A stretch of 55,002 nt of DNA from a virus, in the IMG/VR virus record IMGVR_UViG_3300037245_001061, positions 1 to 55,002 of that record. One strand, given 5' to 3'. Positions 3,804-47,941 of this stretch are shown in pieces. Positions within the stretch are counted from its first letter, which is position 1. Each line of letters opens with the position of its first letter. The translations under genes and the position numbers were made by a program. The notes under the pieces were generated by a model that searched no databases, was not told where the DNA came from, and saw only the letters and a program-made list of their open reading frames with translations.

Positions 3804-4415
3804 CTAGAACCCTAGGTAAGTTATCTCTTGGCCTCTATGTACTAGGGGGTCTTGTGGCGGTTCTGGCTCATCAGGCACTGCACCAGAGATAACCTTGTCA
3901 GAGGCTTCCTTCTCTATAGACTCATCTACGTCTATAAGTACTGTCTTAGTGACACTCCGGGTAGCTACTCTTATCTGCTTAAACGCCATCTGTATATCAA
4001 ATGCTGAGAGAGTCCCCCCACTATGTACCGCAGTACCTACTTCCCCGGATTGACTGAAGACTAGCGCGGTAAACACGCAATCATTAAGTACCTCTAAGCT
4101 GCCGGTGCAACCGACGGAGAACGTATTCCCGCTTTTCTGTAGTGCTACCAGCCTCTCTGACCAGTGCTTGGTGTAACTATCCCCAGAGACTAATGAGTGG
4201 GCACTGGGTTGGAAAGTGTTTATATCAGTGATAACACCCCTGAGGCTCACTACAGTGTTTCTCACAACGTAGTGGTCAGATGCTATGAATCCAGCCTCTA
4301 CCTTCGAATCCGTAGTCTCTCCACTGAGGGTGTAAGTCATCCCTGTGGTGGAGTCCAGCGTGTAGACAATGCCGTCTTGAGTCAGTATGTAGTACTGCTC
4401 TGTGATTTCTGCCAT
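3804..4415 (-). CDS. Tail/baseplate protein between tape measure and plug
   Basis: 203 residues, beta-rich. The segment 'GFIASDHYVVRNTVVSLRGVITDINTFQPSAHS' resembles the N-terminal beta-sandwich of distal-tail-type proteins, which have a conserved 'H-x-V-x-x-x-x-V-x-L-x-G-x-I-T-D' run. The end is acidic and proline-rich, 'PDEPEPPQDP'. It sits immediately after the tape measure, where the first hub-adjacent ring component normally lies. The exact family is unclear. Confidence 0.5.
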   Translation of the reverse strand: MAEITEQYYILTQDGIVYTLDSTTGMTYTLSGETTDSKVEAGFIASDHYVVRNTVVSLRGVITDINTFQPSAHSLVSGDSYTKHWSERLVALQKSGNTFSVGCTGSLEVLNDCVFTALVFSQSGEVGTAVHSGGTLSAFDIQMAFKQIRVATRSVTKTVLIDVDESIEKEASDKVISGAVPDEPEPPQDPLVHRGQEITYLGF

Positions 4416-18305: not shown

Positions 18306-18382
18306 TGGTGGGCCACCAAGGACTTGAACCTCGCGTCTTCCGATTATGAGTCGGCTGCATTAACCCACTATGCTAGTGGCCC
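18306..18382 (-). tRNA. tRNA-Met (anticodon CAT)
   Basis: Seven-bp acceptor stem (GGGCCAC/GTGGCCC) with encoded CCA. The anticodon stem CCGA/TCGG encloses loop CTCATAA with anticodon CAT. The T loop is TTCAAGT. The loop resembles elongator Met; a lysidine-type Ile reading cannot be excluded. 77 nt. It is in the late operon between the zinc-ribbon gene and terL. Confidence 0.88.
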
Positions 18383-18389
18383 TCTTGTT

Positions 18390-18465
18390 TGGTTCCGACA
18401 GAGAGACTCGAACTCCCAACCTGCTCATTACAAGTGAACTGCACTCCCAATTGTGCTATACCGGA
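18390..18465 (-). tRNA. tRNA-Thr (anticodon TGT)
   Basis: Acceptor TCCGGTA pairs with TGTCGGA (two wobble pairs), followed by ACCA. The anticodon stem GTTCA/TGAGC encloses loop CTTGTAA, anticodon TGT. The T arm is GGGAG-TTCGAGT-CTCTC. 76 nt, seven bases upstream of the tRNA-Met gene, so the pair is probably processed from the late transcript. Confidence 0.9.
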
Positions 18466-29162: not shown

Positions 29163-29239
29163 GCCCTTGTAGCTCAGCTGGATAGAGCATCCCCCTCCTA
29201 AGGGGAAGGTCAGTGGTTCGAATCCACTCAAGGGTGCCA
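29163..29239 (+). tRNA. tRNA-Arg (anticodon CCT)
   Basis: Acceptor GCCCTTG/CAAGGGT with encoded GCCA end. D arm AGCTCAGCTGGATAGAGC. The anticodon stem TCCCC/GGGGA encloses CTCCTAA, anticodon CCT. The T loop is TTCGAAT. 77 nt. AGG codons are very frequent in the phage genes here, so a tRNA reading AGG suits the phage's own codon use. It lies antisense to the leader of the leftward transcript starting at 29266. Confidence 0.95.
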
Positions 29240-31440: not shown

Positions 31441-31458
31441 GGGTAAGACATACTGGTT

Positions 31459-31465
31459 GTTACAT
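31459..31465 (+). repeat. First R'-like box at the array entrance
   Basis: GTTACAT, 19 bases after the stop of the replication gene and 33 bases before the first cassette ATG. It has no R'' partner to its left, so it would be the junction between phage DNA and the first cassette. Confidence 0.4.
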
Positions 31466-31497
31466 TTTTGATGATTAAATTTAATGGAGATATTATT

Positions 31498-31698
31498 ATG
31501 ATGTTGAGTGAGCAATTAAAGCAAGACCATGAGTGTGGCGACTTTGGTAAGGCGCTAGAGGGTTATGCCGAAAGAGCTGCAAAGCTTGAGCAGATAGTTG
31601 AAGCCGTGGCGCATATAGGTGTTGATTTTGGCTATGGAAGATTCGACCTTGATAAGGGTCATATTGCACAGGCGAAAGAGTTAACTAGTGACGCCTAA
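31498..31698 (+). CDS. Cassette protein 1, unknown
   Basis: 66 residues from ATG 31498 (GGAGA seven bases upstream). 'LSEQLKQDHECGDFGKALEGYAERAAKLEQIVEAVAHIGVDFGYGRFDL' is a helical phage-type small protein. Function unknown. Stop lies in the R''-like box GCCTAAC. Confidence 0.6.
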   Translation: MMLSEQLKQDHECGDFGKALEGYAERAAKLEQIVEAVAHIGVDFGYGRFDLDKGHIAQAKELTSDA

Positions 31699-31778
31699 CC
31701 TAGAGACAAATTGCGGCACACCATAGCCGCAGGAAACAAACTAAACTTTAACCCGTCAATTTCGTTGGGTTGTTAACT
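31693..31778 (+). repeat. attC-like site 1
   Basis: GCCTAAC ... GTTAACT, 86 bases. Inside are a perfect GCGGC/GCCGC hairpin and outer CAAATT/AATTTCG arms. Confidence 0.65.
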
Positions 31779-31797
31779 GTTTTACGGAGTGGGATTT

Positions 31798-31974
31798 ATG
31801 AGTAGTGGGCATAGCTGGGAATCACCAGAGCTAGAAAAATGTGAACTGTGTGGGGACAAAGACTACATGGCCGACAAGTTTTGCGGCGGAAACCTTGAAG
31901 TGGCTGAGCAGCGAAAAGAGTGGCTAGAAGGGTTGCGTGGCCAAGAGCATAGCGCCGCATGTGCTAACAGTTAA
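31798..31974 (+). CDS. Cassette protein 2, small Cys-containing
   Basis: 58 residues from ATG 31798 (GGAG upstream); GTG 31789 is less likely. 'CELCGDKDYMADKFCGGNLEVAEQRKEWLEGL' has three cysteines that could bind zinc. Unknown function. Confidence 0.55.
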   Translation: MSSGHSWESPELEKCELCGDKDYMADKFCGGNLEVAEQRKEWLEGLRGQEHSAACANS

Positions 31975-31975
31975 C

Positions 31976-32070
31976 GCCTAACCCAAAGCTCAATTGTGAG
32001 CGAATCAACTTGCTTTGACTTTGCGCCAATTAAGACGTTTAGAATGATTGATTTAGTTGGTTTATAATGC
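31976..32070 (+). repeat. attC-like site 2 (decayed right box)
   Basis: GCCTAAC follows the stop. The right box is imperfect (GTTGGTT or GTTTATAATGC with one extra T). The left arm AAAGCTCAATTGTGAGC has an internal palindrome. Confidence 0.45.
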
Positions 32071-32086
32071 TGGAGGTAATGACCGA

Positions 32087-32521
32087 ATGACTTGTGGATG
32101 TGAAAATGAAGGCGGTGAGAGCTGCCATGCTGGCGAAGATTGCGCCGTAATTGAGAGAATTAATTCGTCTGTGGATTACGTAGCAGATTTAGAGAAGAAG
32201 ATGGTCTCCGAGGGGTTTAGGGTGCCGGGGAAGGACTTGAAAGACCAAGATGTATGCAGAGAACTACTGCGGGTAGTCGCTGCCTTCGCGCAGAGCGTCC
32301 CTTTGAATGATTGGTTAGCTGTGGAGGCTGAGATTATGACAGGACTACAGGAAGCAATGGACTTACTCTGTGAGGCTATGAGAGAAGAACGAAAACGGAT
32401 AAGCGAAGAACTTTATGAGATGCAAGGCACTGTGAGCCAGTTTGCAACATCAAAAGAATGTATTGCTTATAACCGAGCACTACGTGAGGCCGCAGAGAAA
32501 ATAATTGCTGGGGACAGCTAA
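32087..32521 (+). CDS. Cassette protein 3, probable fusion across a decayed attC
   Basis: 144 residues from ATG 32087 (GGAGG ten bases upstream). It starts with a Cys cluster (CGCENEGGESCHAGEDC) and has two helical regions. Residues 'VPLNDWLAVEAE' are encoded by a 43-bp block identical to the right half of attC-like site 15 at 38177-38219. An independent start, ATG 32336 behind GGAGG, follows that block. The ORF therefore looks like two cassette genes fused in frame through a former site. Confidence 0.55.
   Translation: MTCGCENEGGESCHAGEDCAVIERINSSVDYVADLEKKMVSEGFRVPGKDLKDQDVCRELLRVVAAFAQSVPLNDWLAVEAEIMTGLQEAMDLLCEAMREERKRISEELYEMQGTVSQFATSKECIAYNRALREAAEKIIAGDS
32292..32334 (+). repeat. 43-bp duplication A, copy 1 (inside a gene)
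   Basis: Exact match to 38177-38219. It contains a GTTAGCT R'-like box and a GGAGG ribosome site but here is read through as protein. Confidence 0.85.
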
Positions 32522-32576
32522 CCATTAGGTAATTTGACGTAGCGAAGCGGAGGTCATTTTGATTAATTTGTTAAGT
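32516..32576 (+). repeat. attC-like site 3
   Basis: AGCTAAC ... GTTAAGT (a full GTTRRRY match), 61 bases, with TGAC/GTCA arms around an AGCGAAGCGG tip, a shape very common in integron attC sites. Confidence 0.75.
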
Positions 32577-32771
32577 CTTTTGGGTCTAAAAAAGAAAGAG
32601 AAGCCCCCAAAGTGGAGACTGGTGCCAGATGAGGATGGTACATATACATTAGAGAAATGGGATGACTTAGTGGGCTATCTCTGTGAAACAGTAAGAGTAA
32701 CGCCAGAAGAGGCTGACAAACAAATTGAGAGGTTAGAGGGAAAAATCCTCTACTACAGAGAAGACAGCTAA
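32559..32771 (+). CDS. Cassette protein 4, unknown
   Basis: 70 residues from TTG 32559, which has GGAGG five bases upstream; the start lies inside attC-like site 3, so the first six codons cover the R' box. 'KWRLVPDEDGTYTLEKWDDLVGYLCETVRVTPEEADKQIERLEG' resembles a small SH3/HTH-like domain and is not recognised. Confidence 0.5.
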   Translation: MINLLSLLGLKKKEKPPKWRLVPDEDGTYTLEKWDDLVGYLCETVRVTPEEADKQIERLEGKILYYREDS

Positions 32772-32828
32772 CCGTTAGTTAATTTGTGAGGAATGAAATG
32801 ACGAATCAATTTGAACGACTTGTTATGC
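32766..32828 (+). repeat. attC-like site 4
   Basis: AGCTAAC ... GTTATGC, 63 bases. Its right half resembles the minus-array site at 27786-27852. Confidence 0.6.
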
Positions 32829-33160
32829 GCCTGCTTCAAGTCACCGCTAAACATGATGACTACGCCCTATGGTGGAGGACTGACGGAGAATACGCGCCAG
32901 TTACATTCTTCATAAACTGCGACGACCTTTTCTTTTGGGCCTGTGCTGATTGTGAGGCGGTTACTGAAGAGAATATTTCAAACCTTGAGCAAGCTTATGA
33001 GGATGCAAAAGGTTGCTATGAGTATGGCTCTTGCTACGCACAATTATTGTTTTGCTGTCGGCAAAGAGGCATGAGGCCGCAACAGCCCTATTATAAAGAG
33101 CTGCCTGAACAAATGTGGGGCCTGTTCAACAAGTGTGGGCCAGAGAGAACTGACGCATAA
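32798..33160 (+). CDS. Cassette protein 5, Cys-rich, unknown
   Basis: 120 residues from ATG 32798 (GAGG seven bases upstream); the start is inside attC-like site 4, giving the opening MTNQFERLVMR that is also seen, in part, in the minus-strand gene ending at 27562. 'FFINCDDLFFWACADCEAVTEENISNLEQAYEDAKGCYEYGSCYAQLLFCCRQRGMRPQQPYYKELPEQMWGLFNKCG' is a helical Cys-rich domain found in several phage hypotheticals. Function unknown. Confidence 0.6.
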   Translation: MTNQFERLVMRLLQVTAKHDDYALWWRTDGEYAPVTFFINCDDLFFWACADCEAVTEENISNLEQAYEDAKGCYEYGSCYAQLLFCCRQRGMRPQQPYYKELPEQMWGLFNKCGPERTDA

Positions 33161-33224
33161 CGGTTGCAAACACTGGCGAGCGCAGATAGATGAGTGGAAG
33201 GAATGATTTATGGAATTGTTAAAT
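33155..33224 (+). repeat. attC-like site 5
   Basis: GCATAAC ... GTTAAAT (full GTTRRRY match), 70 bases, with weak internal pairing. Confidence 0.6.
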
Positions 33225-33239
33225 GTGGAGGACGGTATA

Positions 33240-33440
33240 ATGTGGGAAGATATTAAAGATGCACCTATTGGCACGGAGATGTTTGTCGTAAAGACATTTG
33301 GTGTGAGTAATGGACTTACAGGAGGGCAGACATACACCTCTGACCCTTGGTGTGTCTGGCAGCAAAAAGAAGGGGAGTTCTCAAGGTGGCCGCATAAGTT
33401 CCCGCCTACGCATTTCTTGAGGCTACCAACGAATGGATAG
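33240..33440 (+). CDS. Cassette protein 6, DUF551-like
   Basis: 66 residues from ATG 33240 (GGAGG eight bases upstream). 'WEDIKDAPIGTEMFVVKTFG' and 'WPHKFPPTHFLRLP' follow the W-x-x-I-x-x-AP-x-GT-x-x-L ... THW/F-x-PLP outline of small DUF551-type phage proteins. Biochemical role unknown. Confidence 0.55.
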   Translation: MWEDIKDAPIGTEMFVVKTFGVSNGLTGGQTYTSDPWCVWQQKEGEFSRWPHKFPPTHFLRLPTNG

Positions 33441-33493
33441 GATTATGACGGGTAGCACAAATATACGGCCAGATTGGCGCGGACTTGGGTGAC

Positions 33494-33551
33494 AGTTAAC
33501 CCAGTTATAAGCGCGTTGCTGTAAGCCATCCGCTTGACCGCTTTGTTATAT
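33494..33551 (+). repeat. attC-like site 6
   Basis: AGTTAAC ... GTTATAT, 58 bases, with GCGCG and CGC arms. About 50 bases of unassigned sequence separate it from the preceding stop, perhaps the end of a lost cassette. Confidence 0.55.
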
Positions 33552-33556
33552 TTTGG

Positions 33557-33599
33557 AGAGAATTATGATTATTTTTCATGGCACTGCTGACCCAACACC
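33557..33599 (+). repeat. 43-bp duplication B, copy 1
   Basis: Exact partner of 35482-35524. It covers the ribosome site and first 11 codons of the HGTADP gene. Confidence 0.85.
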
Positions 33600-33612
33600 C
33601 ACACAAAACTAA
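33565..33612 (+). pseudogene. Truncated copy of the HGTADP gene
   Basis: A 15-codon ORF that starts exactly like the gene at 35490 (MIIFHGTADPTP) and then stops. The 43 bases from 33557 to 33599 are identical to 35482-35524. The remaining 75 residues are absent, so this is the stump of a cassette gene replaced by the next unit. Confidence 0.75.
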
Positions 33613-33625
33613 GAGGAATTAAATA

Positions 33626-34063
33626 ATGAAGATGGATAAAGTTGCAGGAAGTGGTAAGGATGAGTTTTACACGCCAAAATATGCTGTTTTGCCTATTTTC
33701 AACAACTTGTCAGCTGCTGGAGGTGGCACAATGGAAATACAGGATACAAAAAAAGTTTGGGTTGCATGGACTAACACTGATTGCACAGAAGGTAGAGGGA
33801 GGCAAATACCAAAATCAGTTTGTGAGGCTGAAGCTACGGCCATCCGTGTTGGTAAGAAGGGGTATGTACAAGGTAGTGATTGCCCAGTTAGCGAAGCCAT
33901 TGCGGTAAGAGTTAATAATTGCTGGCTAGTTCCGGGTGTTATTGTGCCGACGATAAAAGATGATATTGCAACACAAAAACGCCTTGATGAAAAACGAGCT
34001 GTTATTGAAAAAGCAAAAGCTGCTGGACTAACTGAAGAAGACTTGAATGCGCTAGGCAGATAA
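33626..34063 (+). CDS. Cassette protein 7, probable fusion with a methyltransferase stub
   Basis: 145 residues. Residues 1-28 ('VAGSGKDEFYTPKYAVLPIF') match the opening of phage DNA adenine methylases (G-x-DE-x-YTPKYAV), but nothing more of that enzyme follows. The next bases resemble a right attC half with a mutated R' (GTCAGCT), then GGAGG and ATG 33731. From there comes a self-contained 110-residue protein ('VWVAWTNTDCTEGRGRQIPKSVCEAEATAIRVGKKGYVQGSDCPV...LTEEDLNAL'), a phage-type hypothetical. The likely working start is 33731; both starts have good ribosome sites. Confidence 0.6.
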   Translation: MKMDKVAGSGKDEFYTPKYAVLPIFNNLSAAGGGTMEIQDTKKVWVAWTNTDCTEGRGRQIPKSVCEAEATAIRVGKKGYVQGSDCPVSEAIAVRVNNCWLVPGVIVPTIKDDIATQKRLDEKRAVIEKAKAAGLTEEDLNALGR

Positions 34064-34114
34064 CACTTGAGTTAATTTGCTGCGAAGCAGACAACATTGA
34101 ACGATTTGTTAAAC
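34058..34114 (+). repeat. attC-like site 7
   Basis: AGATAAC ... GTTAAAC (full GTTRRRY match), 57 bases. Arms GTTAATTTG and CAACATTGAAC enclose CTGC-GAA-GCAG. This is one of the clearest sites in the array. Confidence 0.8.
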
Positions 34115-34133
34115 GCCTTCGGAGGCACAGAAA

Positions 34134-34322
34134 ATGAGCAAATGGACAAAGCCAGAATTAGAAAACATGCTTGAGGACGTGGTAAATACTCTTGATTTAT
34201 CTGAATGGATGGTTCACGAGCATGGCCAGCATGGGACTGCACCAGCAGAGCTTGTAAGGCTAGTTCTTGAGCAAAAGGACTTGGAGATAAGGGCGCTTAA
34301 GCAAGGCTTTGTAAGCGTTTAA
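34134..34322 (+). CDS. Cassette protein 8, unknown
   Basis: 62 residues, GGAGG upstream. 'MSKWTKPELENMLEDVVNTLDLSEWMVHEHGQHGTAPAELVRLVLEQKDLEIRALKQGFVSV' is helical, and the L-E-Q-K-D-x-E-I-R-x-L end is coiled-coil-like. Not recognised. Confidence 0.6.
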   Translation: MSKWTKPELENMLEDVVNTLDLSEWMVHEHGQHGTAPAELVRLVLEQKDLEIRALKQGFVSV

Positions 34323-34386
34323 CCCCAAATGTTCACTGCGTGAACGAAGCGTAGCGCAGTGAATCCAGTGCAACGAGTTGTTATAA
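34317..34386 (+). repeat. attC-like site 8
   Basis: GTTTAAC ... GTTATAA, 70 bases, with a perfect 9-bp inverted repeat TTCACTGCG/CGCAGTGAA. Confidence 0.75.
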
Positions 34387-34402
34387 ACCGAGGTAAGACA
34401 AA

Positions 34403-34675
34403 ATGATTACTGTTTTTAAATATGAAATACCCCCTTACAACGCTGCAATTAAATTACCTGTTGGCGCAGAGATATTAAGCGTTGCTTTTCAGCGCGATGT
34501 TTTTTCCATGTGGGCGAAAGTTGACACAGAAGTCGAAACAGAAGAACGTAATTTTGAAGCGTTTGGAACTGGCCACGAAATGCCGTACAACATGGGATTA
34601 GATTATGCCTTTGTTGGAACCGCCCACATGGATAACGGGTTGGTCTTTCATGCGTTTGAGCGTTTAGGTTTATAA
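34403..34675 (+). CDS. Cassette protein 9, DUF7352-like
   Basis: 90 residues. 'FKYEIPPYNAAIKLPVGAEILSVAFQRDVFSMWAKVDTEVETEERNFEAFGTGHEM...YAFVGTAHMDNGLVFHAFE' follows the K-Y-E-I/L ... P-x-GA-x-ILSV-x-x-Q ... W-A-x-VD ... F-x-x-x-GTGH ... GT ... V-x-H-x-FE outline I associate with DUF7352, a family frequent in phages. Molecular role unknown. Placement in a cassette is unusual. Confidence 0.65.
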   Translation: MITVFKYEIPPYNAAIKLPVGAEILSVAFQRDVFSMWAKVDTEVETEERNFEAFGTGHEMPYNMGLDYAFVGTAHMDNGLVFHAFERLGL

Positions 34676-34721
34676 CGCTTGAGCACATAAGCCGCAGGTC
34701 TTTTGCTGCGATTTGTTATAC
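34670..34721 (+). repeat. attC-like site 9
   Basis: TTATAAC ... GTTATAC, 52 bases, with GCCGCAG/CTGCG arms. Sequence closely related to site 12. Confidence 0.75.
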
Positions 34722-34740
34722 CTTTTAAGGACTAAGAACT

Positions 34741-34935
34741 ATGAGTATGTATACAGGCTTAGTAGATACAATAAGAGCCACTAAGAAAAAATACGGACTA
34801 GAAGACTCACAGGTAGTTGAATTATTTATTGATGTGATTGGTTGCGTTGAGTGGGACTTAGATGGAGTTGATTATGATGGTGATGATTGGCCTGAGCAAG
34901 AACGAGTGGCAGCAAAGAAGGCGCTAGAGTTATAA
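34741..34935 (+). CDS. Cassette protein 10, acidic, unknown
   Basis: 64 residues. 'YTGLVDTIRATKKKYGLEDSQVVELFIDVIGCVEWDLDGVDYDGDDWPEQERVAAKKALEL' is a helical acidic protein. AAGGA serves as ribosome site. Not recognised. Confidence 0.6.
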   Translation: MSMYTGLVDTIRATKKKYGLEDSQVVELFIDVIGCVEWDLDGVDYDGDDWPEQERVAAKKALEL

Positions 34936-34964
34936 CCTAGAGCTTTGCGGCCCGCGAATTAAAC
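34930..34964 (+). repeat. attC-like site 10 (shortened)
   Basis: TTATAAC ... ATTAAAC, only 35 bases, with CGG/CCG at the centre. The R' box has A for G, so it is probably a deletion derivative. Confidence 0.4.
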
Positions 34965-34973
34965 AGGAGAACT

Positions 34974-35261
34974 ATGATGGAAGCACAGATTAAATATGAA
35001 ACTACCCCGCCTGAAGCTAAAGACGAGGTTAGCGGGTCGCGCCAAAAGCGGGTTGTTATGTGTGGTGACTTGTTACAAGGTGGTGCAATAATATCAGGTC
35101 GCGGTGTTGAAGAGTGGACTGATTACCCTCGATATAGGGTTGTTGCTATACACATGAATAGAGTGACGATGTTTCTGGAAACACTTAACTCAAAAGGCGA
35201 AATCGTAGGCTGTGAAAAAATGGATTTTACAAGTGACCAATGGAGGCATTGGGACACATAA
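34974..35261 (+). CDS. Cassette protein 11, unknown
   Basis: 95 residues, AGGAGA upstream. From 'VVMCGDLLQGGAIISGRGVEEWTDYPRYRVVAIHMNRVTMFLETLNSKGEIVGCEKMDF' it looks like a small beta-barrel. The first 28 residues are encoded by sequence resembling a decayed attC (AAAGCGGGTTGTTATG); an ATG in that box at 35058 could be the original start. Confidence 0.55.
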   Translation: MMEAQIKYETTPPEAKDEVSGSRQKRVVMCGDLLQGGAIISGRGVEEWTDYPRYRVVAIHMNRVTMFLETLNSKGEIVGCEKMDFTSDQWRHWDT

Positions 35262-35337
35262 CCTTTTTATTTTGCTGCTGTGATTGAGCGCAGCGATTGA
35301 ATAGTCTGCAACAATTGGTTGTTATACGTTTTAAAAC
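35256..35337 (+). repeat. attC-like site 11
   Basis: ACATAAC ... GTTATAC, 82 bases, with GCTGCTG and CGCAGCG arms. Confidence 0.7.
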
Positions 35338-35352
35338 ACTAGAGGAACGATT

Positions 35353-35493
35353 ATGTACCTATTTATTTTAGAAGATGGCGAAGTATTAAAAAGCGTTGAA
35401 TTTGGCGATGGTGATAAAGCTGCTGCTGACAACGGAATACTTGAAGTAATAGACCTACACGATGAAAACCCGAAGCAGTATAGAGAATTATGA
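35353..35493 (+). CDS. Cassette protein 12a, small acidic
   Basis: 46 residues ('MYLFILEDGEVLKSVEFGDGDKAAADNGILEVIDLHDENP'), AGAGGAA upstream. It overlaps the next gene by ATGA, so this is a two-gene cassette. Function unknown. Confidence 0.55.
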   Translation: MYLFILEDGEVLKSVEFGDGDKAAADNGILEVIDLHDENPKQYREL

Positions 35494-35524
35494 TTATTTT
35501 TCATGGCACTGCTGACCCAACACC
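35482..35524 (+). repeat. 43-bp duplication B, copy 2
   Basis: Exact partner of 33557-33599. Confidence 0.85.
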
Positions 35525-35759
35525 TATACTAAGCGGAGATATGGCTGAAGGTACTTGGTTAGCTGGGCATAGATTTCATGCTTTTAGGTTGGCTGAAAGG
35601 AGAGTTAAAGATAGGGGTGGGGAGCCTATTGTACTAGAGATCGAGATAGCCACAGGGAGCTTTGATAGAATAGAGGGAAGGAATAGCCCTACATACAGAT
35701 TTTGTGGTGGGGATTACAGGGTTCTGGCACTACATAAGATGAGTAGGGTAGAAATATAA
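35490..35759 (+). CDS. Cassette protein 12b, HGTADP protein (ADP-ribosyltransferase-like outline)
   Basis: 89 residues. 'IIFHGTADPTPILSGDMAEGTWLAGHRFHAFRLAERRVKDRGGEPIVLEIEI' has the HG-T ... G-T/F-x-A ... A-x-x-x-A ... V-x-x-x-x-V outline of small ART-like phage proteins, but the family is uncertain and no catalytic Glu can be assigned. A truncated copy of its start lies at 33565. Confidence 0.5.
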   Translation: MIIFHGTADPTPILSGDMAEGTWLAGHRFHAFRLAERRVKDRGGEPIVLEIEIATGSFDRIEGRNSPTYRFCGGDYRVLALHKMSRVEI

Positions 35760-35807
35760 CGCTGGAACACATAATCGCGCAGCGTATTTTGCTGTGATTT
35801 GTTATAC
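35754..35807 (+). repeat. attC-like site 12
   Basis: ATATAAC ... GTTATAC, 54 bases, with GCGCAGC and GCTGTG arms. It is near-identical in outline to site 9. Confidence 0.75.
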
Positions 35808-35834
35808 GCATTTAAAATACTAAAGGTAAAAATT

Positions 35835-36308
35835 ATGGAATGCCCAAACCCTAGATGTCAGCATGGACAAGATGAAAATTGCACAAACTGCAACTCAATA
35901 AAAAGTGATAAAAATCCAGGTATAGGTGCTTGTACGTGGCCTGATAAAGATAATACATCACTTGCCTATACCTACTCAGAAGGTGGCATTGTCGAAGTGG
36001 CTGCAGGCTTGTCTGCCGCGCAAGATGCAGTTGCCAAAGAAACTATGGAGCTTGTTGGATTAGATAGAAAAGAAGCTTGGGATAAAGCAGAACGTGCTAA
36101 GAAACGTTTGGCAGAATTAGACAATGAAGCTATGCGTCAACAAATAGCCGATACTTGTGTTGCTGGCGGTTACTGGAGTGTGTGGATGACAGTTTTTGAA
36201 GGCGATAGCGATATGCGCCAGCGCTTTATTGATGCTATGCCGGGTACAGCACAAGATTGTTTTGATGCTAATACGCAAGCTCTTAGTAGGCCGGGGGGTT
36301 TGGTGTGA
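35835..36308 (+). CDS. Cassette protein 13, zinc-ribbon-like N-terminus
   Basis: 157 residues from ATG 35835. The start 'ECPNPRCQHGQDENCTNCNSI' has four cysteines spaced as a zinc ribbon. The rest is helical ('KEAWDKAERAKKRLAELDNEAMRQQIADTCVAGGYWSVWMTVFEGDSDMRQRFIDAMPGTA'). Its stop is not followed by an attC-like site; the array is interrupted here. Confidence 0.6.
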   Translation: MECPNPRCQHGQDENCTNCNSIKSDKNPGIGACTWPDKDNTSLAYTYSEGGIVEVAAGLSAAQDAVAKETMELVGLDRKEAWDKAERAKKRLAELDNEAMRQQIADTCVAGGYWSVWMTVFEGDSDMRQRFIDAMPGTAQDCFDANTQALSRPGGLV

Positions 36309-36347
36309 GCTGCCCACTATTTGATGAATACTAACTAGGAGAACCAC

Positions 36348-36545
36348 ATGAAAACATTACAAGATTTCAAAGACGAACTAAACAAGTTTATATCTGCAAT
36401 CGAGGATAACTACCGGGAGATGTTCAAGGTATTCGAGAAGGCTGGGGAGCTAGATCTCACAGAGGACGAGAACACTGAGGCAATCACGTACATGACTATC
36501 AGGATTGCTAAGATGCAGCAAGTGATAGCTGAGCTGGAGGAGTAG
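36348..36545 (+). CDS. Small coiled-coil protein
   Basis: 65 residues, entirely helical and acidic (MKTLQDFKDELNKFISAIEDN..IAKMQQVIAELEE), AGGAG upstream. Phage-type codon use. It begins the block of ordinary phage genes inside the array. Confidence 0.65.
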   Translation: MKTLQDFKDELNKFISAIEDNYREMFKVFEKAGELDLTEDENTEAITYMTIRIAKMQQVIAELEE

Positions 36546-36547
36546 GT

Positions 36548-36847
36548 ATGAAATATATTGCATATCCTGTAACGTGCATACTTTTAGTCACCCTAGGGCC
36601 AATTATTAAAGGGTGGGTTCTGTCCATACTGTGGTCATGGTTTATTGTGGGCACATTCGGACTGCCCGCACTATCCATACCCGCTGCCATAGGACTATCC
36701 CTAGTTGTTGGCTTTATTAACTACTCTAGGGTTGTCAAGGTTGAAGAAGAAGGGCCGCTGGAAGTACTACTTAAGTGGGTAGGAGAGCTATCAGCTAAGT
36801 GCCTCGTTGCCCTGTCCATGGGCTGGGTTATCCTGCAGTTCATTTAA
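36548..36847 (+). CDS. Membrane protein with three to four helices
   Basis: 99 residues. Hydrophobic segments at about 4-22, 25-48 and 75-98, with a short charged loop 'RVVKVEEEGPLE'. Holin-like size, but lysis function cannot be inferred. Two bases after the coiled-coil gene. Confidence 0.6.
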   Translation: MKYIAYPVTCILLVTLGPIIKGWVLSILWSWFIVGTFGLPALSIPAAIGLSLVVGFINYSRVVKVEEEGPLEVLLKWVGELSAKCLVALSMGWVILQFI

Positions 36848-36866
36848 ACAAACAAAGGAGACCACT

Positions 36867-37013
36867 ATGAGGAACATACTATATATCGCAGCATGGATAA
36901 TGTTAATGTACGCCTGCTACTGGGTATTTAAGACATGCAGTTACACCATCTTCTATGAGGGTATGGTGGAGGACACTGTACGGGAGATGGTACTGGAAGA
37001 GTCACTTCAATGA
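36867..37013 (+). CDS. Single-pass membrane peptide
   Basis: 48 residues from ATG 36867 with AGGAG upstream. One N-terminal helix ('NILYIAAWIMLMYACYWVF') and an acidic tail. It overlaps the next gene by four bases (ATGA). Confidence 0.6.
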   Translation: MRNILYIAAWIMLMYACYWVFKTCSYTIFYEGMVEDTVREMVLEESLQ

Positions 37014-37240
37014 ACATCCGAGACCTCTCCCTAGAGATGGAAGTCTCCTCCAAGGATAACCCCATGGTAACTTACTTCGTGGTATCCATAGGGGAGAGTA
37101 CTTGCACACTAGAGTGGAGGAATACTCTGAAGACTCTTGATGGTGTTGAGTATGTCGATGATGTGTACACTTATGAGGGGATATCCCCTGAGATACTAAG
37201 CCCTGTGGGGAATGAGAGACATGAACGATATGCTGATTAA
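37010..37240 (+). CDS. Small beta protein, unknown
   Basis: 76 residues ('NIRDLSLEMEVSSKDNPMVTYFVVSIGESTCTLEWRNTLKTLDGVEYVDDVYTYEGI'), beta-rich, acidic. Unknown function. Confidence 0.55.
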   Translation: MNIRDLSLEMEVSSKDNPMVTYFVVSIGESTCTLEWRNTLKTLDGVEYVDDVYTYEGISPEILSPVGNERHERYAD

Positions 37241-37469
37241 ATTATTTACTATAGCCGCCAATATTAAGAAAGACGGATGGATAGTGATACCCCCATCCAA
37301 TCGAAAGTACACTGTGACATTGAGGGTGGAGTGGTTTTTAGATAAGAAATATGGATTTGAGCGCAGCTTTACAAGAACAGAGCTTGAGCAGACCAATATA
37401 GACCTTGCTGCAGTGTTTGTAGAAGAAGCTAATCATAATATTGATATGCAACTGAAGCAAAGCGCCTAA
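37212..37469 (+). CDS. Small protein at the start of the second cassette block
   Basis: 85 residues if started at 37212 (overlap 29 bases with the previous gene); 37221 or 37230 are alternative starts. 'IKKDGWIVIPPSNRKYTVTLRVEWFLDKKYGFERSFTRTELEQTNIDLAAVFVEEAN' is a beta/alpha domain. The gene body has phage-type context, but its stop lies in an attC R''-like box, so its 3' end belongs to the array. Confidence 0.55.
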   Translation: MRDMNDMLIKLFTIAANIKKDGWIVIPPSNRKYTVTLRVEWFLDKKYGFERSFTRTELEQTNIDLAAVFVEEANHNIDMQLKQSA

Positions 37470-37525
37470 CGCCTTAAACAAAAGCCGTAGCGAAGCGAAG
37501 GTCGCTTTGCTTTAAATTGTTATAC
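37464..37525 (+). repeat. attC-like site 13
   Basis: GCCTAAC ... GTTATAC, 62 bases. CCTTAAACAAAAGC pairs imperfectly with GCTTTGCTTTAAATTG around AGCGAAGCG. Another very clear site. Confidence 0.8.
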
Positions 37526-37550
37526 GGCCACTAATTACGGAGTGAATGAA

Positions 37551-37841
37551 ATGCTTGGCGAACTGAAAGAAGAGCATAAAACAATAGTTTCCCTTAAAAC
37601 AGAGACATATAAGAGGGGAAACAGTTTTGTGGCGGCCAAAGTGCTGACAACACTAAAAAGAAAGTCGACTGGCTTTGATATTTTAAACGGATCAGTAGCC
37701 GACGAGGTAGGGGATTTGCGGGATATTGAGGGTGTATATCTCTTGCCAGACGGTGAATATGAGCTTGTATATGCAAACCCTAGCCGTGACTGGGAGTCCG
37801 GGGTGTGGGAATTTGAGGGCTATGCACTGAAAGCCGTATAA
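37551..37841 (+). CDS. Cassette protein 14, unknown
   Basis: 96 residues from ATG 37551 (GGAG eight bases upstream). 'SFVAAKVLTTLKRKSTGFDILNGSVADEVGDLRDIEGVYLLPDGEYELVYANPSRDWESGVWEFEGYALKAV' is beta-rich. Not recognised. Confidence 0.6.
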   Translation: MLGELKEEHKTIVSLKTETYKRGNSFVAAKVLTTLKRKSTGFDILNGSVADEVGDLRDIEGVYLLPDGEYELVYANPSRDWESGVWEFEGYALKAV

Positions 37842-37889
37842 TGCTGGAATTAATAAGCCTGAAAGGTCTTTTTCAATGATTTGTTATGT
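37836..37889 (+). repeat. attC-like site 14
   Basis: GTATAAT (R'' with T for C) ... GTTATGT, 54 bases, with CTGAAAG and CTTTTTCA arms. Confidence 0.55.
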
Positions 37890-37913
37890 GGGGATTTGAA
37901 ACAATGGTGATTT

Positions 37914-38156
37914 ATGATTGATGATGAAGATTTAGAAAAGCTGATACAAGAGAATAAAGACCAAGACATGCACTTTGTGGAGTACTTTAAGCATAAGTTC
38001 ACGTACCGCTTCACTGGAGTTGACGGTGTTAACTACTCTATCTGGTGCGGCGATACAGAAGGAGATATTTACCGTGATGGTTGGAGTGCAACTGAAAAGG
38101 TTGGCTGCTTAAGGGTGAATGGGTGCGTCCATTTTGCCTTGGCGAAAGACACATAA
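37914..38156 (+). CDS. Cassette protein 15, unknown
   Basis: 80 residues. An acidic helix, then 'FTYRFTGVDGVNYSIWCGDTEGDIYRDGWSATEKVGCLRVNGCVHFAL', a small beta domain. No family recognised. Confidence 0.6.
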   Translation: MIDDEDLEKLIQENKDQDMHFVEYFKHKFTYRFTGVDGVNYSIWCGDTEGDIYRDGWSATEKVGCLRVNGCVHFALAKDT

Positions 38157-38205
38157 CGCTTGAATTAACGGGCGCGAGAGCGTCCCTTTGAATGATTGGT
38201 TAGCT
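38151..38205 (+). repeat. attC-like site 15
   Basis: ACATAAC ... GTTAGCT, 55 bases. GGGCGC/GCGTCCC form the tip, with TTGAATTAA and TTTGAATGATTGG arms. Its right half is the source-like copy of duplication A. Confidence 0.75.
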
Positions 38206-38219
38206 GTGGAGGCTGAGAT
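38177..38219 (+). repeat. 43-bp duplication A, copy 2 (attC right half)
   Basis: Exact partner of 32292-32334. Here it lies between genes and supplies the R' box and ribosome site of the next cassette. Confidence 0.85.
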
Positions 38220-38454
38220 GAGGACTATTTCTAGTAGTAACGGGGTGACCCTGGTGTTCCCTGATGACGAACTAGCCAAAGAGTACGCTGATAATTTAGA
38301 ACTACTACACATACAAACGTATAAGAAAATTAGAGATAAGTATGGGGTGTTTGCTGGAAACAATAATAAGTTTGTAGAAAGCAGGGAGAACTTGAGCGCG
38401 CACGACCCCCGATTTATGGAGAACCTGTACGACAGATATTACGATACAGAGTAG
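38218..38454 (+). CDS. Cassette protein 16, unknown
   Basis: 78 residues from ATG 38218 (GGAGG five bases upstream). 'MRTISSSNGVTLVFPDDELAKEYADNLELLHIQTYKKIRDKYGVFAGNNNKFVESRENLSAHDPRFMENLYDRYYDTE' has an alpha-helical centre. An earlier ATG at 38191 would read through the attC half and is unlikely. Confidence 0.6.
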   Translation: MRTISSSNGVTLVFPDDELAKEYADNLELLHIQTYKKIRDKYGVFAGNNNKFVESRENLSAHDPRFMENLYDRYYDTE

Positions 38455-38456
38455 AC

Positions 38457-38510
38457 AGCTAATACCAAGTTCAAGGGCGCACAGCGTCCCTTGTAACTCA
38501 AATGTTATAC
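38457..38510 (+). repeat. attC-like site 16 (last of the array)
   Basis: AGCTAAT ... GTTATAC, 54 bases. CAAGGG and CCCTTG with inner CGC/GCG form a good hairpin. Followed by ordinary phage genes. Confidence 0.7.
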
Positions 38511-38529
38511 CAAACTAAGGAGAACAACA

Positions 38530-40440: not shown

Positions 40441-41454
40441 ATGGCGTTAGAAGACTTAATTAAAGGGGCTAGGTGCCAAACACCCAAGAACATCCCTACG
40501 TATGACTACCAAGAGCCCGTAGCAGCCATAGACGCCCAGCAGGGTATCTTCTGGCTACCCGGAGAGCCTAAGGTAGAGAATGACTTACATTGTATAAAGA
40601 CAGAGCTAACCCCTGCAGAATATCACGGGGTTGTATCCACATTGAAGCTATTCACCCTCTACGAGAGTGTGGCAGGTAATGAGTGGTGGGGAGGGCGCTT
40701 TAAGCGTATGTTCCCCCGGCCTGAGTTCCGAGATATGGGTGCTTGCTTCAGTAACATAGAGCTTAATGTACACAAGAGGTTCTACCAAAGGGTGGACGAG
40801 GTGTTAGGGCTAGATACAGATGAGTTCTACTCTAGCTTCACAGATGACCCCGTACTGAAAGCCCGTATGGACTTCCTCGATGACTGTATCAGCGACAAGA
40901 ATGATCTATTCAGTACTGCAGTATTTAGTATGGTTGAAGGGGCTATCTTATACTCAAGCTTTGCCTTCCTCATGCACTTCCAAGCCGAAGGGAAGAACAT
41001 GATAACCAACATACACTCAGGGCTCACCTTCAGCGTAAAGGATGAGAACCTACACAGCGAGGGAGGGGCTTGGGCATACCGTAACCTACTCAAAGAGCAA
41101 GAGGGGTTAGGGTACAAGGGTAGGGGAGCTATCGAGGGGCGTATTGTGGAGGCTGCACACAAGATATACGAGCATGAATGCCATGTAATCGATATGATCT
41201 TCAGTGAGGGGACTATCAAAGGTATTACAGCCAAACAACTTAAGCACTTTGTAGAGAGCCGTATCAATGTTGTACTACAACAGCTTGGTATAGATAACAT
41301 CTTCAAAGTCCCGTACAATCCAGTAGCCAAATGGTTCTACGAGATGATTGGTGGGGATGCACAGCACGACTTCTTCTATAAGCTTGGAAGTAGTTATAAC
41401 AGGAACTGGAGTGAGAGGGCTTTCGTTTGGAAAGTAGGGGGATTGAATGTCTGA
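40441..41454 (+). CDS. nrdB: Ribonucleotide reductase class I beta subunit
   Basis: 337 residues. The ferritin-like ligands are seen as 'YESVAGNEWW' (first acidic ligand), 'NIELNVHKRFY' (Glu and His), 'VEGAILYSSF' (Glu) and 'VKDENLHSEGG' (Glu and His). The radical-relay end is 'FVWKVGGLNV'. Spacing of the second pair is E-x3-H, as I recall in some marine phage NrdB rather than E-x2-H of E. coli. It holds the radical cofactor for NrdA to make dNTPs during phage replication. It overlaps nrdA by eight bases. Confidence 0.92.
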   Translation: MALEDLIKGARCQTPKNIPTYDYQEPVAAIDAQQGIFWLPGEPKVENDLHCIKTELTPAEYHGVVSTLKLFTLYESVAGNEWWGGRFKRMFPRPEFRDMGACFSNIELNVHKRFYQRVDEVLGLDTDEFYSSFTDDPVLKARMDFLDDCISDKNDLFSTAVFSMVEGAILYSSFAFLMHFQAEGKNMITNIHSGLTFSVKDENLHSEGGAWAYRNLLKEQEGLGYKGRGAIEGRIVEAAHKIYEHECHVIDMIFSEGTIKGITAKQLKHFVESRINVVLQQLGIDNIFKVPYNPVAKWFYEMIGGDAQHDFFYKLGSSYNRNWSERAFVWKVGGLNV

Positions 41455-43144
41455 GAGTATATTTGAGGAGCTATCTGCAGAACGTAAGAAACTACAAAAG
41501 CAAGGTAAGCTGCCTGATTGGTTTACTACTGTTGGGTGGCAAACCTTCAAGGGGAAGTACCTCCATGAGGCAGACACCTTTGAGGAGCAGATTGACCGTA
41601 TAGTTAAGACAGTGGGGAAGTATGCGCCGTCTAACCGAAAGTACTTCAAGAGGCGGTGGAAGGAGCTTATTATGAATAATCATGCCTACCTAGCGACACC
41701 CACACTAGCCAATATAGGAACCAACAGGGGCATGGGGGTTAGTTGCTCTGGGGGTGATATCCCTGATAGTGTATACGGCTTTGGGGATGCTAGGTTAGAG
41801 TGTAGTATATTAAGCCAAGAGGGGTTTGGTACCAGCTCTTACCTAGGCAATATCCGAGAACGAGGGGCTCCTATCTCAAGGGGTGGTAAGGCCAATGGTG
41901 TACTCCCGGTCTTCGAGGACATGGTGAGGATGGCAGAGAACATCTCCCAAGGTGGTGCTCGGAGGGGAGCATGGGCTGGTTACTTACCAATGGAGCATGG
42001 AGACTTCTGGGAAGTTGCAGGGTCTGTGAAGAACGACCCTGATGGGGCTAACGTAGGATGGAATATCCATGACTCTACCATAGCTAAGTTGAACTCTGGG
42101 GACGAGGATACAATTGCCAGATTCCAGAGGTCTCTGTCTCTTAAGATGGTGGCAGGGAGGGGGTACTACTACTTCCCAGACAAAGTGGCAAGGGCAGCCC
42201 CTCAAATGTATAAGGACTTAGGGCTGCGTAGTGTAGCTAGTAATCTCTGCACAGAAATTACTCTACATGCAGATGAGGAGCACTCCTACTCCTGCGTGTT
42301 ATCTGGGATGGTAGCCTCCTCTTACGATGAGTGGAAGAACACCGATGCAGTGTACTGCATGACTATCTTCCTAGATTGCCTAGTGAGTGAGTTCCTAGAT
42401 AGCGCTAAAGATGTACGTGGTCTTGAGAGAATCATCAGAGGTACTGAGAAGGGGAGAGCACTCGGCTTAGGTATGAGCGGCATCCATACGTACTTCCAAA
42501 AGAATATGATGCCTTATGGCGGTATACAAGCCCACATGAAGAACATAGAGATGGCCAAGCACTTAAATAAGGAATCCCTGAGGGCCTCCCAGTGGATGGC
42601 CTCACAATGGGGAGAGCCTGAGTGGTGTAAGGGGTATGGAGTTAGGAATACTCACCGTATAGCGTATGCCCCTAACTTAAGCTCTGCTACCATCTTCGGC
42701 AGTGAGAGTCAAGGCTGTGGGCTGTGGTTTGGGAATGTCTACACCGAGTCTGGTGCTGCGGGGGGTATGTTTAGGGTGAACCCGCTCTTCATCGAGCTAC
42801 TCAAGAAGCATGGTAAATATGATGAGGAGACTATCAACTTTGTACTGAATGACAGCGGCTCTTGTCAGAATCTGGACTTCTTGTCTCAGCTAGAGAAGGA
42901 TGTATTTAGAACTGCATTTGAAGTGAACCAAGAGGATGTCCTTAGGCTATTTAGTCACAGGCAGAGAGAGACTTGCCAATCACAGTCACTGAACCTCCAC
43001 TTTGATGCTGAAGAAGACGAAGAGTACATAGCATACATCCACCAACTGGCATTTGAGGATGAGAATATCCATAGCCTGTACTATGTTAGGGGTAAGGCTG
43101 GAGTAAGTGCCTCTAAAGGTGCATGTTCTAGTTGCGAATCCTAA
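41447..43144 (+). CDS. nrdA: Ribonucleotide reductase class I alpha subunit, short phage form
   Basis: 565 residues with no N-terminal ATP-cone, so it probably lacks the usual overall activity control. Catalytic features are seen: 'GVSCSGGD' (first redox Cys), 'NLCTEITLHADEEHSYSCVLSG' (N-L-C-x-E radical Cys and Glu, then the second redox Cys), 'LYYVRGK' (relay tyrosines) and the C-terminal 'CSSCES' pair that is recharged by glutaredoxin. It reduces ribonucleoside diphosphates with NrdB. Starts inside nrdB. Confidence 0.95.
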   Translation: MSESIFEELSAERKKLQKQGKLPDWFTTVGWQTFKGKYLHEADTFEEQIDRIVKTVGKYAPSNRKYFKRRWKELIMNNHAYLATPTLANIGTNRGMGVSCSGGDIPDSVYGFGDARLECSILSQEGFGTSSYLGNIRERGAPISRGGKANGVLPVFEDMVRMAENISQGGARRGAWAGYLPMEHGDFWEVAGSVKNDPDGANVGWNIHDSTIAKLNSGDEDTIARFQRSLSLKMVAGRGYYYFPDKVARAAPQMYKDLGLRSVASNLCTEITLHADEEHSYSCVLSGMVASSYDEWKNTDAVYCMTIFLDCLVSEFLDSAKDVRGLERIIRGTEKGRALGLGMSGIHTYFQKNMMPYGGIQAHMKNIEMAKHLNKESLRASQWMASQWGEPEWCKGYGVRNTHRIAYAPNLSSATIFGSESQGCGLWFGNVYTESGAAGGMFRVNPLFIELLKKHGKYDEETINFVLNDSGSCQNLDFLSQLEKDVFRTAFEVNQEDVLRLFSHRQRETCQSQSLNLHFDAEEDEEYIAYIHQLAFEDENIHSLYYVRGKAGVSASKGACSSCES

Positions 43145-47292: not shown

Positions 47293-47424
47293 TCATACCC
47301 CCATCCCCTTCCTATCGAAGGGCACCCTCACCTTAGCCTTATTCTTCCCCAAGTTAGTCACCCGGTACCAACACGCCCTGCCTCCTCTCCAGAAGGGCTT
47401 GAATATAAAGTTACCTCTTCTCAT
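47293..47424 (-). CDS. Small basic protein with WRGGR motif (copy 2)
   Basis: 43 residues. 'FIFKPFWRGGRACWYRVTNLGKNKAKVRVP', very basic, beta-like. ATGA overlap with its upstream paralogue. Shares K-x-x-WRGGR with it. Possibly nucleic-acid binding. Confidence 0.55.
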   Translation of the reverse strand: MRRGNFIFKPFWRGGRACWYRVTNLGKNKAKVRVPFDRKGMGV

Positions 47425-47582
47425 ACTACTCTCCTCCACGGCATTCTCTTAGGGGGCCAACCACGGCCATACCTACATCTTGGCACCAACCTAGTACGCA
47501 TCTGTCCGGGGGGACGTAGGACACGCAGCATAGTCTCCCTACCACCTCTCCAGACCACCTTGTACATTCTCTTAGTCCTCAT
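47421..47582 (-). CDS. Small basic protein with WRGGR motif (copy 1)
   Basis: 53 residues, 19 of them Arg/Lys. 'MYKVVWRGGRETMLRVLRPPG' parallels the next gene. ATGA overlap on both sides. Function unknown. Confidence 0.55.
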   Translation of the reverse strand: MRTKRMYKVVWRGGRETMLRVLRPPGQMRTRLVPRCRYGRGWPPKRMPWRRVV

Positions 47583-47941
47583 ACCACTCTCCCAGTTAGA
47601 TCTTCAATTAAGCTATGTAGAACCTCTACACACCCCTCCTTGTCAGAGCACTCCATCTTGTATGCCAGTAGATCAAGCCTACTTATGATCTCCCCGTACA
47701 ACTCATGGTGGATGGCATGTGCAGCCCTCTCAGCAGCCCACTCCCCCTCACCAGCATGATATTGGACTGATGATACCCACTGGAGCTTGAAGTCAGACTG
47801 GTACTTATTTCTCATGGGGGTGTCACGTAATTTCTCAGTGTGGGATGAGAGGGAGGCAGGTGCCCACCCACCACCATCTATTAGCCGCTCTCCACCCATA
47901 ACCATACCATCAACAATATCCCTTACAGCTAGTATCTTCAT
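47579..47941 (-). CDS. Unknown protein
   Basis: 120 residues. 'MKILAVRDIVDGMVMGGERLIDGGGWAPASLSSHTEKLRDTPMRNKYQSDFKLQWVSSVQYHAGEGEWAAERAAHAIHHELYGEIISRLDLLAYKMECS', mixed alpha/beta. The gene starts one base after the metallophosphatase stop. Unknown. Confidence 0.55.
   Translation of the reverse strand: MKILAVRDIVDGMVMGGERLIDGGGWAPASLSSHTEKLRDTPMRNKYQSDFKLQWVSSVQYHAGEGEWAAERAAHAIHHELYGEIISRLDLLAYKMECSDKEGCVEVLHSLIEDLTGRVV

Follow-up and report, generated by a model that had tools for sequence, protein, structure and literature searches.

What are small genes laid out like integron cassettes doing in the genome of a tailed phage, and are they exchanged there? Integron cassettes are exchangeable gene units whose usual home is the bacterial chromosome, and a cluster of attC sites lacking an integrase is termed a CALIN. 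The question is raised by IMG/VR record IMGVR_UViG_3300037245_001061, whose 55,002 bases (the window) come from a tailed phage of the contractile-tail type with genes for tail sheath, tape measure, baseplate hub, major head protein, portal and large terminase. About 13 small phage genes between 31.46 and 38.51 kb of the window are packaged as integron cassettes. With high probability, this is a cassette array of inverted polarity whose units are exchanged at TAA|C (the bar marks the cut), a host integrase likely acting in trans.

attC sites and cassette boundaries

The attC array in the window is real. The layout given in a preliminary description of this DNA, namely small genes on the plus strand whose intervening spacers start with TAAC at the stop codon and close with GTTA boxes ahead of the next start, is present, and its boxes follow the R'' (RYYYAAC) and R' (GTTRRRY) consensus, with RRRY relaxed (often to RYRY) as it also is in gamma-proteobacterial controls. 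The sites were scored with a covariance model made from the arms of 61 non-redundant bacterial attC, taken from 20 array regions at intI loci after one bacterial order had been surveyed for integron integrases; the window and the phage sites were left out of the training. (An integron integrase above the family cut-off was present in 164 of 395 genomes of that order.) Run over the whole window with filters off, the model gave nine matches, all inside 32766-38498, and nothing above 9.9 bits elsewhere. On the array strand it also recovered the arrays already known from bacteria, Shewanella phage M16-3, a Vibrio anguillarum phage and TJE1, and it found no match in Colwellia phage 9A (80-105 kb) or Polaribacter phage P12002L. 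The preliminary description had proposed a CALIN-like array and a covariance search as its check, and both held up: the search gave matches at the sites, the best reaching 30.2 and 26.3 bits, and no Phage_integrase domain or other tyrosine recombinase was found in the window. With at least two clustered attC and no intI gene, the window thus holds a CALIN and not a complete integron.

Because the R''/R' stem of a circular cassette arises from both of its ends, the boxes flanking a gene, and not those flanking a spacer, are expected to match. This expectation could be assessed on the window without any covariance model: in 9 of 15 units the three variable bases were perfectly reverse-complementary across the gene, in 0 of 15 across the spacer, and neither the observed sum nor the observed number was reached in 500,000 permutations of the window boxes. 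The same measure gave 50/89 across genes and 16/89 across spacers for bacterial cassettes, and every unit matched across its gene in three phage contigs (L265, 4/4; L267, 2/2; L242, 4/4), one unit of L265 holding three genes, a lysozyme among them. The units of the window end at G|TT and are complementary end to end, and such across-gene complementarity is the mark of excisable cassettes. TAA followed by C closes 13 of 17 array genes; among the remaining 25 plus-strand genes in the window, 1 has this end (Fisher P 1.1e-6).

Against the roughly 16 spacers of the preliminary description, our count is 15 sites (S1 and S3-S16) and three remnants (31459-31465, 31969-32012 and about 32285-32320). 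The array falls into two parts (sub-arrays A and B) separated by a stretch of mostly overlapping genes at 36309-37463 that lacks sites, some 0.9 kb of the range being site-free. Nor did every spacer fold better than shuffled sequences: 34317-34386 (z -3.5) and 38462-38511 (z -4.5) did, several others did not. L''/L' pairing with an extrahelical base on the R'' side was found on the minus strand in S7, S9, S12, S13, S15 and S16 and is weak or lost in S1, S3 and S10, S1 and S3 being degenerate sites. Searches of the array for Rfam families and tRNAs found none. The features are as follows (CM, covariance model).

31459-31465, minus: S0, solitary R''-type box behind the pol-like gene, reading GTTACAT on plus; left-edge attC, truncated; the box at the next gene's end does not match
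31498-31698, plus: cassette gene, 66 aa; open reading frame (ORF) with end GCCTAA|C
31693-31778, minus: S1, attC of weak polarity; AGTTAAC box matched across the following gene; the two strands score about equally over the spacer
31798-31974, plus: cassette gene, 58 aa; flanks GTTAACT and AGTTAAC, perfect across the gene
31969-32067, minus: S2, truncated attC with a fused 55-base cassette-gene remnant (32013-32067), 100% identical over 55 bp to a gene intact in L248/L265
32087-32521, plus: fused ORF of two cassettes, 144 aa; boxes GTTAGCT and AGCTAAC perfect; inner half attC at about 32285-32320, box GTTAGCT at 32314
32516-32576, minus: S3, attC; CM 8.5 bits on minus
32559-32771, plus: cassette gene, 70 aa
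32766-32828, minus: S4, attC; CM 16.7 bits on minus
32798-33160, plus: cassette gene, 120 aa; boxes GTTATGC and GCATAAC; homologues in Sphingopyxis and Streptomyces phages
33155-33224, minus: S5, attC by its boxes; minus favoured by spacer score
33210-33440, plus: cassette gene, 76 aa; weak phage homologues
33494-33551, minus: S6, attC; CM 10.2 bits on minus
33564-33611, plus: cut-short copy of the 5' end of the gene at 35490 (MIIFHGTADPT...), from sequence
33626-34063, plus: cassette gene, 145 aa; homologue in Vibrio phage NF
34058-34114, minus: S7, attC; CM 15.4 bits on minus; L'' GTT[C]AAT[G]TTG paired with L' CAAATTAAC
34134-34322, plus: cassette gene, 62 aa; boxes GTTAAAC and GTTTAAC
34317-34386, minus: S8, attC with strong hairpin; fold z -3.5
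34403-34675, plus: cassette gene, DUF7352 / phrog_3848, 90 aa; DUF7352 E 9e-22; boxes GTTATAA and TTATAAC
34670-34721, minus: S9, attC; CM 18.5 bits on minus
34741-34935, plus: cassette gene, 64 aa
34930-35061, minus: S10, long attC (about 130 nt) by its boxes; overlaps the start of the ORF at 34974
34974-35261, plus: cassette gene, 95 aa or shorter; boxes GTTATGT and ACATAAC
35256-35327, minus: S11, attC of ambiguous polarity; boxes, spacer score
35353-35759, plus: two overlapping cassette genes, 46 and 89 aa
35754-35807, minus: S12, attC; CM 19.0 bits on minus; L boxes covary with S9 (GCA/TGC to ACA/TGT)
35835-36308, plus: gene of 157 aa beyond the final attC of sub-array A; stop TGA, no box
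37221-37469, plus: phage-type gene, start overlaps the upstream gene; its TAA|C stop forms the left-hand junction of sub-array B
37464-37525, minus: S13, attC; CM 26.3 bits (E 3.3e-4) on minus; L'' AAA[G]CAAA paired with L' TTTGTTT
37551-37841, plus: cassette gene, 96 aa; boxes GTTATAC and GTATAAT; homologue in Colwellia phage 9A
37836-37889, minus: S14, attC; CM 19.1 bits on minus
37914-38156, plus: cassette gene, 80 aa, near-identical in L248/L265; boxes GTTATGT and ACATAAC
38151-38205, minus: S15, attC, top model match; CM 30.2 bits, E 3.5e-5
38218-38454, plus: cassette gene, 78 aa; boxes GTTAGCT and AGCTAAT
38457-38510, minus: S16, attC; CM 12.0 bits; fold z -4.5 (38462-38511); 10-bp L stem, one extrahelical base in its L'' arm

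The array lies between a pol-like gene (phrog_4756) on its left and, on its right, a run of small genes before a ribonucleotide reductase (41447-43144). Structural genes occupy the minus strand up to about 29 kb, and replication and accessory genes the plus strand between 30 and 47 kb. Three tRNA genes of the phage (Met, Thr and Arg) lie at 18306-18465 and 29163-29239.

Polarity of genes and attC sites

Cassette genes usually, though not obligatorily, share the polarity of their attC. The window departs from this layout throughout, a departure that the preliminary description had missed. All nine covariance matches above 10 bits lie on the minus strand, whereas plus-strand coding of the array genes is backed by their ribosome sites and by the DUF7352 match. 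The signature TAACAA...GCGTTA, oriented as in bacteria, reads on the minus strand, with the extrahelical L-stem base in the arm adjoining TAACAA. A position model of arms and spacers preferred the minus strand at 13 of the 15 sites (one of the exceptions, the long site S10, was scored with a box one base off); applied as a control to M16-3, the V. anguillarum phage, TJE1 and Pseudoalteromonas phage H101, it placed 23 of 23 sites on the strand given by the covariance model. Gene and attC shared a strand in 0 of 11 window cassettes and in 77 of 89 bacterial ones (Fisher 9.5e-9). Covariance model, spacers and L-box asymmetry thus show a predicted attC polarity opposite to that of the array genes. 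A plus-strand reading of the sites as canonical attC was ruled out, because the L boxes fit the minus strand only. A pattern scan with TAACGCTTGA...TTGTTATAC was likewise discarded, its matches being chance-like, and the match in L254 lies in unrelated sequence.

Strand choice at attC depends on structural features such as extrahelical bases (PMC2727003; PMC8946536), and normally makes captured genes face the cassette promoter (PMC8946536). Inversion recurs in two further groups of phages that an orientation-blind search brought up and, for the most part, also in H101; it is not universal in phages. In L242, a phage unrelated to the window with portal and capsid genes of its own, four attC lie on the minus strand and the genes on the plus strand (118-1630), the cassettes including an N6/N4 DNA methylase; we found no earlier description of this inverted array in the literature. 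In H101 (L256, 25919-27987), four attC lie on the plus strand (30-37 bits) and the annotated genes there on the minus strand, one cassette also having a convergent plus-strand ORF co-oriented with attC. A leader of about 80 bases is repeated in two H101 cassettes.

Exact gain and replacement of units in sister phages

If the units are cassettes, related phages should differ by whole units with exact boundaries, an outcome that had been set beforehand as a test. An orientation-blind pattern scan of viral contigs for this attC type surfaced L248 (= L265), and a second scan gave two sister contigs. Contigs L265, L266 and L267 share the same junction, TAA|CAAAACGATAGAGGG. To its right, L265 and L267 are identical at 3983 of 3991 positions (99.8%) and L265 and L266 at 3876 of 3973 (97.6%). 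To its left, L265 has the 80-aa cassette and L267 two other cassettes, and L266 is an empty site: an ordinary phage gene stands there, and no box upstream of it matches. The next cassette inward (96 aa) is common to L265 and L267 (125/127), and identity stops exactly after TAA|C. L265 also shares one unit with the window, consisting of the right half of an attC and the 80-aa gene: there is one difference in about 290 bp (~99.7%), identity again stops exactly at TAA|C, and the flanks of the two arrays do not match. Boundary-precise gain, replacement and absence of units at TAA|C are therefore observed among relatives, as the preliminary description had anticipated for exchangeable units. The L265-L267 records, like the window, hold no tyrosine recombinase.

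Further repeats and shared stretches were seen in these genomes. The first ~40 bases of the HGTADP gene occur twice in the window (33564-33611 and 35490-35530), the first copy being incomplete. Half an attC with a cassette leader at 32285-32330 is repeated at 38171-38219, the first copy being read through in the 144-aa fused ORF. Outside any attC array, window 47298-47587 and L266 4090-4542 are alike (96% over 167 bp and 86% over 128 bp).

Among relatives found by other routes, those identified through the ribonucleotide reductase were set aside, as they had no synteny across the array and no convincing attC. The pol-like gene led to no relatives in viral contigs, and the window had no direct DNA matches in phage or plasmid collections. 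Recognisable homologues of the cargo are phage proteins. Of the 395 genomes in one bacterial order, only 6 held homologues, and no convincing attC lay near any of these; access of the phage to a host cassette pool, as first suggested, is thus not supported. The DUF7352-like assignment of the cargo was confirmed at 34403-34675, whereas the gene at 33210-33440, proposed to be DUF551-like, had no Pfam match. A bacterial integron array (L225) carries several near-identical attC every ~427 bases and looks like an amplified cassette.

Origin of the layout and known systems

How might such an array arise? Read on the plus strand, a unit consists of an attC and, behind it, a phage-type gene that lacks a promoter and stops with TAA; the cuts fall at TAA|C on plus, equivalent to G|TTA on minus. 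A host IntI would most likely act in trans on the plus-strand attC hairpins, which correspond to the attC bottom strand; this is suggested by the lack of a tyrosine recombinase in the phage records, by phage attC being IntI1 substrates (PMC9892861) and by the ability of IntI1 to use short GTT secondary sites (PMC10127599). A phage stop codon TAA followed by C would offer an antisense GTTA core just past the stop. A cassette caught there would lie antisense, so that only cassettes whose gene is inverted relative to attC would join the phage operon and persist, and the operon would grow by one ribosome-site-plus-gene unit per insertion with its neighbours unbroken. Location of the attC bottom strand on the lagging-strand template has been described for plasmids as the more active configuration (PMC8946536); the cumulative GC skew of the window, with its minimum near 29 kb, weakly hints at this location, and skew also tracks gene strand. 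More broadly, lytic phages may own a class of inverted cassettes behind stop codons, with attC bottom strands on the coding strand, traded between lineages through their hosts' integrases in a phage-to-phage economy distinct from the bacterial one, a proposal that we regard as tentative, with the odds slightly against it.

Several observations weigh against exchange of inverted cassettes at stop codons. Polarity is weak or ambiguous at S1, S3 and S11 and partly at S6 and S10. In H101 the boxes lie off the stop codons and one plus ORF is co-oriented, so the stop-codon argument does not fit there, and the genes of TJE1 are co-oriented with attC. The sister contigs are metagenomic, and L265 and L267 start inside the array. 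Finally, the attC of the cassette shared with the window is a hybrid in L265 (left half S9-like, right half S14-like), which means that homologous or slippage events inside attC also occur; together with the fused ORF 32087-32521, the truncated duplicate at 33564 and the degenerate S1 and S3, it indicates that slippage or homologous recombination also acts on these arrays. The hybrid, the fused ORF, the truncated genes at 32013-32067 and 33564-33611 and the lack of an integrase in the phages would all suit true attC in a fossil array, captured once and now reshuffled only by homologous recombination or slippage. We nevertheless consider this unlikely: the whole-unit differences between L265 and L267 are joined exactly at TAA|C on 99.8% identical backbones, the neighbouring attC at the switch are unrelated, so that homology does not explain the junctions, and a perfect box match persists across most genes.

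Might the asymmetry have been misread, the active strand being the usual one for plus-strand genes? S1, S3 and S11 score similarly on both strands and R boxes are near-symmetric, yet the strand of all nine matches above 10 bits, the TAACAA...GCGTTA signature, the extrahelical base in the arm adjoining TAACAA at the six sites named above and the 23/23 agreement in other phage arrays make such a misreading decidedly improbable. Scarcely credible is a series of terminator-like or RNA-processing hairpins with a repeated consensus that are not recombination sites. Several spacers do fold well single-stranded and lie between genes of one operon, but no Rfam family fits, the bacterial attC model matches one strand only with the right box asymmetry, and terminators leave no room for across-gene box complementarity or exact unit exchange, which already contradict it.

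Phage CALINs as such are a known kind. The preliminary description knew of no well described phage with such an array, whereas Qi et al. 2023 (PMC9892861) had reported 17 phage CALINs, with IntI1 recombining 5 of 6 tested attC sites. Those in the virulent phages TJE1 (Tetrasphaera), PH101/H101 (Pseudoalteromonas) and P12002L (Polaribacter) resemble the window in having an attC cluster without an integrase, small phage-type cargo and a G|TT cut point (PMC9892861). The window differs from these CALINs in its longer array (15 sites), its gene polarity opposite to attC throughout and the gain and swap of units, along with an empty site, that occur naturally among sister phages; the annotated H101 genes, too, are mostly inverted relative to attC, a point not discussed in the accessible parts of PMC9892861. 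We found nothing closer in the open literature on later phage arrays or inverted cassettes, and inverted polarity as a recurring phage layout, together with natural turnover in sister phages, appears to be new. This moves the transfer of integron cassettes by phages from a possibility to observed turnover between sister phages. The inverted layout would let a genome with neither attI nor cassette promoter add operon genes, giving phages a route to exchange accessory genes, those for lysozyme and methyltransferase among them, with no need for illegitimate recombination, and the polarity of gene versus attC should, as a simple testable rule, separate phage-adapted from bacterial cassettes.

Sedentary chromosomal integrons (Vibrio, Shewanella and relatives) share with the window the attC architecture, the across-gene box match and mostly one small gene per unit; unlike them, the window has no IntI, its genes and attC oppose each other, and no attI was identified in it, although no search aimed at attI was made. 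Shewanella prophage M16-3 and the Vibrio anguillarum phages likewise have attC arrays in a phage genome, but as complete integrons, with intI present and most cassettes co-oriented. Off-target IntI activity at secondary GTT sites (PMC10127599) is a likely entry route where a genome has no attI, the empty site of L266 having only a GTTATG core, and what sets the present arrays apart from it is that the events are repeated, linked to stop codons and build an operon.

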